Shown: one piece after another, positions 29,112 through 29,674 of the stretch
Position numbering within the stretch: position 1 is the stretch's first letter
Layout: each line of letters begins with the position of its first letter
The notes under the pieces: model-generated
Told to the model about the DNA's origin: nothing
Seen by the model: only the letters and a program-made list of their open reading frames with translations
The model's database searches: none
Assembly: GCA_027485575.1 (NCBI GenBank)
Contig: JAIXQU010000190.1
Span: forward strand, 1-35,009
Direction of reading: 5' to 3'
From: Cytophagaceae bacterium
Lineage (GTDB): Bacteria > Bacteroidota > Bacteroidia > Cytophagales > Flexibacteraceae
DNA: 35,009 nucleotides
Translations under genes and position numbers: made by a program

Positions 29112-29323
29112 GGATATTTCTTCCTTTTAGATCCACTCTGCGCTTATTGATTACCAGAGGTTTTTTTTCAGCGCTCTCAAAAAAACTAATTTTTGTACTA
29201 CTAAAACCAAACTTAAACCCCGTTGATATTGGTTGGCACGCCAAAGGCATCTTTAATAAAATTTTCAATTTGACAAGGAATCAAAATTCAATCAACCGAA
29301 GATAAAAGCCGTTATCTTCTTTA
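29112..29323. other. Intergenic stretch after ABC gene
   Basis: AT-rich, with no gene I can support. A short hairpin AGATAA-aagccg-TTATCT lies at about 29300-29317, just left of the tRNA-derived array; it might be a remnant of an older unit or chance. The minus-strand frame here overlaps the ABC tail and is not convincing. Confidence 0.4.
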
Positions 29324-29335
29324 CGCCCTAACCAA

Positions 29336-29367
29336 AATAAAAAAGCCCCTGAATCTCAGAGGCTTTT
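29336..29367 (-). terminator. Terminator hairpin of tRNA-derived repeat unit 1
   Basis: Hairpin arms 29344-29352 (AGCCCCTGA) and 29356-29364 (TCAGAGGCT), 3-nt loop and one mismatch (G-U on the minus-strand RNA), followed on the minus strand by a T-tract. The same sequence recurs at units 2 and 3. Confidence 0.7.
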
Positions 29368-29372
29368 ATCCG

Positions 29373-29460
29373 TAGCGGAGAGGGGAATCCCAGCCCGACT
29401 GCGTCTCGCTGGCGGGGAACCCCTGTTCGCCAAGGCGAATATGAATCCTGCGCTCTAACC
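29373..29460 (-). pseudogene. tRNA-Met-derived remnant, repeat unit 1
   Basis: Minus strand: begins with GGTTAGAGCG (D-loop of tRNA-Met), then CAGGATTCATA with the anticodon CAT, then a 14-nt palindrome TTCGCCTTGGCGAA (29426-29439) in place of the anticodon-stem 3' strand, then CAGGGG, then a palindromic insert (GC-rich, includes the 26 nt absent from unit 2), then CTCCGCTA of the acceptor 3' side. The 5' acceptor and D-arm are missing, so it cannot fold as a tRNA. Confidence 0.75.
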
Positions 29461-29461
29461 A

Positions 29462-29495
29462 AAATAAAAAAGCCCCTGAATCTCAGAGGCTTTTG
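29462..29495 (-). terminator. Terminator hairpin of tRNA-derived repeat unit 2
   Basis: Arms 29471-29479 and 29483-29491, identical to units 1 and 3 in the stem, with a T-tract on the minus strand. A wobble pair closes the sixth position. Confidence 0.7.
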
Positions 29496-29499
29496 TTTG

Positions 29500-29561
29500 T
29501 AGCGGAGACGGGAATCCCAGCCCCTGTTCGCCAGGGCGAATATGAATCCTTCGCTCTAACC
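29500..29561 (-). pseudogene. tRNA-Met-derived remnant, repeat unit 2
   Basis: Same layout as unit 1 but exactly 26 nt shorter, lacking the GC-rich insert between the CAGGGG arm and GGGATTCCC. The 14-nt palindrome is TTCGCCCTGGCGAA on the minus strand (29527-29540). It keeps the anticodon triplet and the 3' acceptor sequence but lacks the 5' half of a tRNA. Confidence 0.75.
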
Positions 29562-29563
29562 AA

Positions 29564-29596
29564 AATAAAGAAGCCCCTGAATCTCAGAGGCTTTTT
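29564..29596 (-). terminator. Terminator of tRNA-Met
   Basis: Arms 29572-29580 and 29584-29592 (AGCCTCTGA / TCAGGGGCT on the minus strand), 3-nt loop, followed by a T-run. It lies 5-8 nt after the tRNA 3' end and is the original copy of the hairpin repeated in units 1 and 2. Confidence 0.85.
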
Positions 29597-29600
29597 TGTG

Positions 29601-29674
29601 TAGCGGAGAGGGGAATCGAACCCCTGACCTCAGGGTTATGAATCCTGCGCTCTAACCATCTGAGCTACCCCGCC
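29601..29674 (-). tRNA. tRNA-Met (CAU anticodon)
   Basis: 74 nt, minus strand: acceptor GGCGGGG pairs with CUCCGCU (two G-U pairs), D-stem GCUC/GAGC, anticodon loop UUCAUAA (anticodon at 29638-29640), variable AGGUC, T-arm AGGGG-UUCGAUU-CCCCU and discriminator A. No CCA is encoded. Elongator Met is favoured because fMet normally has a C1-A72 mismatch; the lysidine-type Ile2 tRNA is the alternative. The A31-C39 mismatch in the anticodon stem is a minor irregularity. It is followed by its terminator. Confidence 0.92.

Follow-up and report, generated by a model that had tools for sequence, protein, structure and literature searches.

Transfer RNA genes are favoured homes of mobile DNA, which usually reaches them through integrases. 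Small GIY-YIG proteins and GIY-YIG homing enzymes linked to tRNA genes are kinds of protein that are known already. Among the latter is SegB, a free-standing GIY-YIG homing endonuclease of T-even phages: it has cleavage peaks within tRNA genes of phage T6, and a tandem amplification by recombination that involves tRNA-Tyr and a shortened segB depends on it (PMC13096335). According to the accessible part of the same report, the motif RAWTSGAAC is present at 23 of 83 SegB cleavage sites and the enzyme has no preference for particular tRNA isotypes (PMC13096335). By our own reading, this motif on the opposite strand appears to be the sequence of the tRNA T-loop. SegB is the closest precedent for the arrays described below, with which it shares, as far as that part of the report goes, a GIY-YIG gene among tRNA genes and tandem tRNA repeats. 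It differs from them in being encoded by phages, whereas the genes described here are chromosomal, in its lack of isotype preference, whereas lineages here mostly keep to one isotype, and in that palindromic marks, which are found in the Bacteroidota elements, are not described for SegB in the portion of the report at hand.

Other described systems resemble the locus in part. The UPF0213-type small GIY-YIG proteins (PF01541) belong to the same single-domain family as the nucleases considered here, the entries PDB 1zg2 and 1ywl, both hypothetical proteins, matching with E values of 2e-15 and 2.5e-11, respectively. Tandem repeats that lie behind a tRNA gene and contain the tRNA 3' end are also found in the 178-bp repeats of E. 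coli tyrT, the source of rtT RNA; their tRNA part is no longer than about 19 nt, unlike in the present case, and we know of no palindromic replacement in these repeats or in rtT RNA. Finally, short palindromes in or near genes are a feature of the Rickettsia palindromic elements and of REP/REPIN sequences, which are dispersed and present in many copies. In a search of the open-licence PubMed Central literature, no account of Bacteroidota GIY-YIG genes accompanied by tRNA fragments was found. As far as this search reached, what is new here is the existence of chromosomal nuclease lineages that are mostly faithful to one isotype, together with a palindromic overwrite at a fixed place of the tRNA.

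A tandem array of truncated copies behind tRNA-Met(CAU)

The DNA under study, hereafter the window, is a 35,009-nt stretch from the draft genome of a Cytophagaceae bacterium. The host gene of the array is an intact tRNA-Met(CAU) on the minus strand (29600-29674, ARAGORN; Rfam RF00005 at 29601-29674, 66.3 bits), which we take to be elongator-like, initiator features being absent. It is the sole match of the window in Rfam at gathering level, where no other RNA family was found, and an identity of the array with rtT RNA was rejected since this search gives tRNA only. On the minus strand, the gene is followed by its terminator (29562-29597, a stem at 29571-29593 plus a T-tract, read from the sequence), then by a proximal truncated tRNA-Met copy that runs from the D-loop GG to the acceptor end (29499-29561), a terminator copy (29462-29492, stem 29470-29492) and a distal truncated tRNA-Met copy (29372-29460), these three being delimited by repeat comparison, and lastly by another terminator copy (29335-29365, stem 29343-29365) and a trace of 10 nt, GGTTAGGGCG (29324-29333), left by a third copy, both recognized in the sequence. 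Both truncated copies start at the D-loop GG and have the same terminator hairpin behind them. The three repeat copies follow each other in steps of 127 and 101 nt and share 75% and 91% identity with the middle copy, far beyond chance.

Each truncated copy carries the 14-nt palindrome TTCGCCnnGGCGAA in place of exactly ten native bases, ACCCTGAGGT (linear nt 39-48 of the 75-nt tRNA). In the proximal copy it lies at 29527-29540 (minus strand, TTCGCCCTGGCGAA), replacing the ten bases that follow CATA; in the distal copy it lies at 29426-29439 (minus strand, TTCGCCTTGGCGAA) and is identical to the palindrome of the tRNA-Met array of a congener, described below. The distal copy additionally contains a 27-nt imperfect, GC-rich palindromic insert (29390-29416, minus strand), which splits the T-loop between GTTC and GATTC and thereby splits a SegB-type motif that is present in the intact tRNA of the window (GTTCGATTC). 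Re-reading of the coordinates confirmed the layout given in a first-pass annotation made from the sequence alone, namely two truncated copies plus a trace behind the intact gene, the clear copies running from the D-loop GG to the terminator, with a 14-nt palindrome in the 3' strand of the anticodon stem of both copies. Its further statement that a 26-nt insert is exactly absent from one unit holds in part: a 26-nt stretch between G-runs is indeed missing from the proximal copy, but the insert is 27 nt long and a CTGG scar of it is kept in the altered T-loop of that copy. Owing to this scar, the insert probably predates the duplication.

There is no ORF of at least 80 aa in the array, and a search with the GIY-YIG profile (PF01541) gave no match on the window's contig. 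For an integrase gene, which an attachment site in a tRNA gene would call for, the array offers no ORF of that length; the ORFs between 25.5 and 33.5 kb of the window were read by eye. RNA folding was compared with that of shuffled sequences: the two units reached z-scores of -0.70 (for a stretch with a shortened terminator) and -1.71, the intact tRNA with its terminator -3.35. A selected RNA fold of the units is thus unsupported, and the earlier proposal that they are structured RNAs gains no strong support from these energies. Behind the trace of the third copy, at 29298-29319, lies an inverted repeat, GAAGATAA-6-TTATCTTC, which may represent the palindrome of a third, decayed unit.

Palindromes, inserts and GIY-YIG genes elsewhere in the genome

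The palindrome TTCGCCnnGGCGAA occurs at three sites in the 3.9-Mb genome, two of them in the array and one on another contig (C27) without a tRNA. The 27-nt insert also has three sites, all in truncated tRNA copies: the tRNA-Met copy of the window and tRNA-Glu copies on contig C77 and at the end of contig C94. In these low numbers, and in the confinement of the insert to tRNA copies, the locus differs from REP/REPIN sequences, so that a REP-like dispersal of the 14-nt palindrome, one of the options raised at first, was ruled out. The C77 and C94 inserts have one base changed relative to that of the window and sit at the same T-loop point of the truncated tRNA-Glu copies. With up to three mismatches allowed, the insert was absent from 10 other genomes of the family and 394 other genomes of the phylum. 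Since tRNA-Met and tRNA-Glu share GGGTTCGATTCCC at the T-loop, its presence in copies of both looks like a short conversion between arrays at this common sequence.

On C77, a 97-aa GIY-YIG ORF is located between the terminator of an intact tRNA-Glu and the truncated copy, with its stop codon inside the 27-nt insert. It is one of six GIY-YIG matches in the genome. Two of these fall in long ORFs (490 and 615 aa), while each of the other four has a tRNA or a tRNA-like copy at most 0.2 kb away: the C77 ORF at tRNA-Glu, one on contig C44 beside a tRNA-Leu at the contig end, and two on contig C98 around a tRNA-like copy. C44 is the weaker case, its tRNA-Leu being on the opposite strand and its ORF broken and at the contig end; this broken ORF follows a terminator that resembles that of tRNA-Met. 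The tRNA-like copy of C98 (2776-2856 of the extracted locus L011) is called tRNA-Tyr(gta) by ARAGORN and scores 34 bits, above the Rfam tRNA cut-off, but its sequence looks like a Val-type copy in which the anticodon arm is a palindrome. A palindrome-bearing tRNA-Arg copy on contig C39 (887-962 of locus L229) likewise exceeds this cut-off, with 38.9 bits. Palindrome-marked copies thus mislead annotation, two of them in this genome passing the Rfam tRNA cut-off and one being called tRNA-Tyr.

Contigs C77, C94, C44 and C98 end in or near such repeats, so that copy numbers of arrays in this draft genome are unreliable. Palindromes like TCCCGAACTGGCTTCGGGA also recur in the genome, on contigs C97, C98 (102-120), C102, C123, C135, C141, C142, C143, C155 and C156.

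One tRNA-Met locus in three states

The tRNA-Met of the window and its upstream region match three genomes of the same genus, G002, G003 and G004. In G003 (record CANETC010000114.1, from the metagenome-assembled genome Cytophagaceae bacterium CE-Jul18-8), the order is tRNA-Met, terminator, GIY-YIG ORF, truncated tRNA-Met, terminator, GIY-YIG ORF, truncated tRNA-Met and a different last terminator. In both of its truncated copies, TTCGCCTTGGCGAA replaces the same ten bases as in the window. A 92-aa Met-type nuclease of G003 is encoded at reverse-strand positions 916-1194 of the extracted locus L073. In G002, the same kind of element begins at tRNA-Met and then reaches the contig end, while G004 is an empty site, with tRNA-Met and a window-type terminator only. 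A single tRNA-Met locus is therefore found in three states: occupied (G003, and G002 up to the contig end), empty (G004), and with fragments that have no ORF, as in the window. Loss of the ORF in the window is favoured over a gain of fragments only, because its palindrome is identical to that of G003.

The window array has no ORF, yet it shares its palindrome and the ten replaced bases with units of G003 that encode GIY-YIG proteins, as expected of a MITE-like derivative. A repeat search found no inverted repeat at the ends of the window units, taken from the D-loop to the terminator T-tract, so that the end structure of a MITE, inverted repeats with a target-site duplication, is missing from them. 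A second, palindrome-like insert, TGCGCCTTCGGCGGCA, was seen in the acceptor-stem part of both truncated tRNA-Met copies of G003. The SegB-type motif of the T-loop is intact in these copies, and the T-loop as a general cut site was rejected for the Met lineage on this ground.

GIY-YIG genes beside tRNA genes across the phylum

At the level of the order, a search with the tRNA-Glu nuclease as query matched 25 of 59 genomes, the window's genome included; the matches listed outside that genome were covered by 59 regions. A 20-row model was then used for the phylum and matched 127 of 198 genomes at 1e-8, again including the window's; from these, 60 regions were taken, one per array and best-ranked among the matches listed, a choice that favours the tRNA-linked kind. 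In the 20 aligned relatives, the GIY-YIG residues Y, Y, G, R, H and E are invariant and PF01541 is matched in all 20.

A tRNA or tRNA fragment on the same strand was found within 150 nt in 28 of 59 order-level entries and in 57 of 61 phylum-level entries among the matches listed, the latter being a biased rate because the model behind the phylum set was itself made from proteins encoded next to tRNAs and its top matches were taken. Within 350 nt, the figures are 31/59 and, among the matches listed, 59/61. The remaining 28 of 59 order-level entries, with no tRNA within 350 nt, count against reading the family as tRNA-bound elements. Of all 125 entries, 88 have tRNA sequence on the same strand at most 150 nt away. 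Intact tRNAs on the opposite strand were seen within 350 nt in 0/59 order-level entries, 0/61 phylum-level entries (among the matches listed) and 1/3 entries of the window's own genome. Judged from the 30 tRNA matches in the 3.9 Mb of that genome, chance adjacency is estimated at well under 1%.

Of the 122 loci of the order, the phylum and the window's genome, 56 have an intact tRNA immediately upstream of the nuclease gene and 21 have one immediately downstream. In the commoner unit, an intact tRNA and its terminator precede a GIY-YIG ORF of about 75-100 aa, behind which lies a displaced 3' tRNA fragment; in the mirror form, found for instance at Arg, Ser and Leu-CAG loci, a 5' tRNA fragment and the ORF precede the intact tRNA. 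At least two nuclease stretches are present in 29 of the 125 entries, where some of the stretches may belong to a single broken ORF, and the largest array seen (L195) has five nuclease units. Two of the nucleases were searched with PADLOC and NCBIfam and gave no match, and tblastn with the Met-type nuclease against 50,697 phage records found nothing at E 0.01, which lends no support to a phage origin.

Units with no ORF were also found at other tRNAs. In genome G057, four such units of about 93 nt, each bearing two palindromes (eight in all, one imperfect), lie upstream of a tRNA-Met(CAU) that has three GIY-YIG units on its other side, and similar units occur at tRNA-Asp near contig ends. Together with the tRNA-Arg copy of C39, these cases make the window array one instance of a recurring form.

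Palindromes replace fixed segments of the tRNA

With arms of at least 6 nt and a loop of at most 6 nt, perfect pairing being the selection criterion, a palindrome was found in 82 of 105 truncated tRNA copies versus 138 of 856 background windows; the 82/105 is an upper figure, 45 of 112 intact tRNAs passing the same loose test. The other 23 copies have no qualifying palindrome, and nine of these are tRNA-Ser(UGA) copies of three loci (L172, L219 and L221). Placement on the tRNA was restricted to palindromes for which both 9-nt flanks could be located in the intact tRNA, which gave 45 rows, or 41 after merging.

Loci of the same isotype mostly have the same segment replaced by these 45 placed palindromes, even when they belong to different genera and classes. 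The same ten bases are replaced in 9/9 loci of the Met clade defined below (nt 38-47, or 39-48 in two loci with longer tRNAs). The 17-nt anticodon arm is replaced in four of five Val loci (16 nt in the fifth), in four Pro loci, three Ala loci and one Lys locus, and eight T-arm bases are replaced in seven of eight Asp loci, the eighth disagreeing. In three Arg loci, the palindrome is a pure insertion in the D-loop, between nt 22 and 23. Asn counts against this regularity, with three different places in three loci. When pairs of different loci of the same isotype were compared, the palindrome had the same place in 79 of 111, versus a mean of 15.2 and a maximum of 30 in 1000 shuffles. The idea, put forward at first, that palindromes randomly colonised a slippage duplication is thus contradicted, since within most isotypes one fixed tRNA segment is overwritten across genera.

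Loops vary between these palindromes, and compensated changes were observed in the arms at two positions in Met, two in Val and one in Asp, with none in Pro, Ala or Arg. Palindromes with TCCCGA arms are also found outside the collected arrays, which counts against the main reading given below. In one genome (G001), there are 75 TCCCGA-TCGGGA sites versus one for a control pattern.

Nuclease lineages and tRNA isotypes

The nuclease tree kept 118 rows, 86 of them with a tRNA label within 250 nt; nuclease stretches with undetermined bases or below about 195 nt in length were excluded, among them L011 on account of its length. It was built from 79 columns with a quick search and has many open forks. 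Labels were used as called, even though the fragments suggest that L060 (Gly) is probably Leu and L084 (Tyr) probably Val. On the 86 tRNA-linked nucleases, the isotype changes 29 times versus a mean of 62.7 after shuffling, none of 200 shuffles being as low. Nine Met-linked rows, including that of G003, form a clade with SH-aLRT support of 99. Two Met-labelled rows, L090 and L099, nevertheless fall outside this clade, and the tree splits each of the isotypes Asp, Ala, Val and Pro. Both the nuclease and the palindrome place of L099 differ from those of the Met clade; its tRNA-Met(cat) may, we presume, be a tRNA-Ile2(CAU) labelled as Met. Relatives with no nearby tRNA fall mostly apart from the others (five changes versus a shuffled mean of 28.3). 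Nuclease lineages thus mostly keep to one tRNA type, a tendency that is strong and imperfect.

Interpretation

At odds of about two to one, we read the window array as an ORF-less remnant or a non-autonomous form of a tRNA-Met-specific GIY-YIG element, which belongs to a widespread Bacteroidota family living in tRNA genes. The first-pass suggestion of a tRNA-derived, MITE-like repeat family rather than random decay is borne out by the palindrome of G003 at the same place and by the ORF-less units at other tRNAs; its alternative, that the units occur only here, fails with the same palindrome in the G003 tRNA-Met array. What the annotation did not contain is the GIY-YIG nuclease gene, present in the relatives and absent from the window's contig.

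By analogy with SegB, the tRNA-linked GIY-YIG nucleases would act by cleavage and homing. The nuclease would cut unmarked copies of its tRNA gene, and recombinational repair from an element-bearing copy would insert the element and restore one intact tRNA. The palindrome would mark the displaced fragment by removing the cut segment, so that the fragment could be neither recut nor used as a tRNA. Further cutting and unequal recombination would yield a tandem array, and later loss of the ORF would leave palindrome-marked fragments such as those of the window. A difficulty is that, if the palindrome is a shield, the adjoining intact tRNA should still be cut, and recognition would then have to depend on the flanks or self-cutting be weak. 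In addition, since the SegB-type motif is intact in the Met copies of G003, the Met enzyme, if it cuts, should do so outside the T-loop. In its most far-reaching form, which we put forward tentatively and hold to be somewhat improbable, this mechanism would make the family a phylum-wide set of minimal selfish elements, one isotype each, in which the palindrome is written over exactly the cut segment as a code for used sites.

The palindrome could instead be the substrate: a GIY-YIG enzyme related to SLX1 would cut a cruciform or hairpin at the palindromic copy, and the released unit, its ends homologous to tRNA, would recombine into tRNA genes. Sequence relatives with solved structures do include the structure-specific SLX1 nucleases (E 3.4e-7 and weaker), though the UPF0213 match (2e-15) is better, and a substrate role would fit the fixed place of the palindrome within most isotypes, its variable loops and the compensated changes in Met, Val and Asp. 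Only compensation is informative in this respect, pairing having been selected for, and Pro, Ala and Arg offer none; moreover, arrays of up to five nuclease units (L195) exist, where self-cutting would be expected. On balance, we regard this explanation as unlikely.

A role of the palindrome confined to the tRNA is less probable still. The palindrome would merely block folding or processing of the displaced fragment as a tRNA, so that harmful pseudo-tRNAs are avoided, and the nuclease would play no part in its choice. The placed palindromes do lie in an arm or loop of the tRNA (the anticodon arm, the variable region, the T-arm or the D-loop), and prediction software can still take near-complete copies for tRNAs. 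However, any mutation would do for such a role, which leaves the palindromic form, the isotype-fixed place and the compensation in the arms unexplained.

It is highly improbable that the system works on RNA, with the fragments being transcribed decoys or antidotes for a nuclease acting on tRNA and the hairpin mimicking the anticodon arm: the placed palindromes of Val, Pro, Ala and Lys do replace this arm (17 nt, or 16 in one Val locus), and the anticodon triplet is still readable in the loop of several of these copies, but Asp is hit in the T-arm and Arg in the D-loop, the two nucleases searched had no PADLOC or NCBIfam match, and GIY-YIG enzymes are known as DNA nucleases. A purely local history, in which slippage duplicated the 3' part of the tRNA with its terminator, the copies decayed and the palindromes are chance or later insertions, has an equally slim chance, since the orthologous array of G003 has an identical palindrome at the identical place and palindromes are isotype-fixed elsewhere in the phylum, even if the window units have no ORF of at least 80 aa and no GIY-YIG match, fold little beyond shuffled sequences and appear, from their sequence, to join at a T-run/GG microhomology. 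The tandem step itself may well be due to slippage or unequal recombination.

Returning to the tRNA-specific GIY-YIG element, if the used-site code were true, the position of the palindrome would be a readout of the target of each enzyme. In Val, Pro, Ala and Lys, the enzyme would then be aimed at the anticodon arm, in Met at the ten bases that follow the anticodon loop, in Asp at eight bases of the T-arm, and in Arg at the D-loop between nt 22 and 23. Across the phylum, one small nuclease domain appears to have given rise to many specialised lineages, for the most part one for each type of tRNA. The conserved palindromic overwrite may reveal where each enzyme cuts, in which case the targets of many of these nucleases could be predicted from sequence alone.
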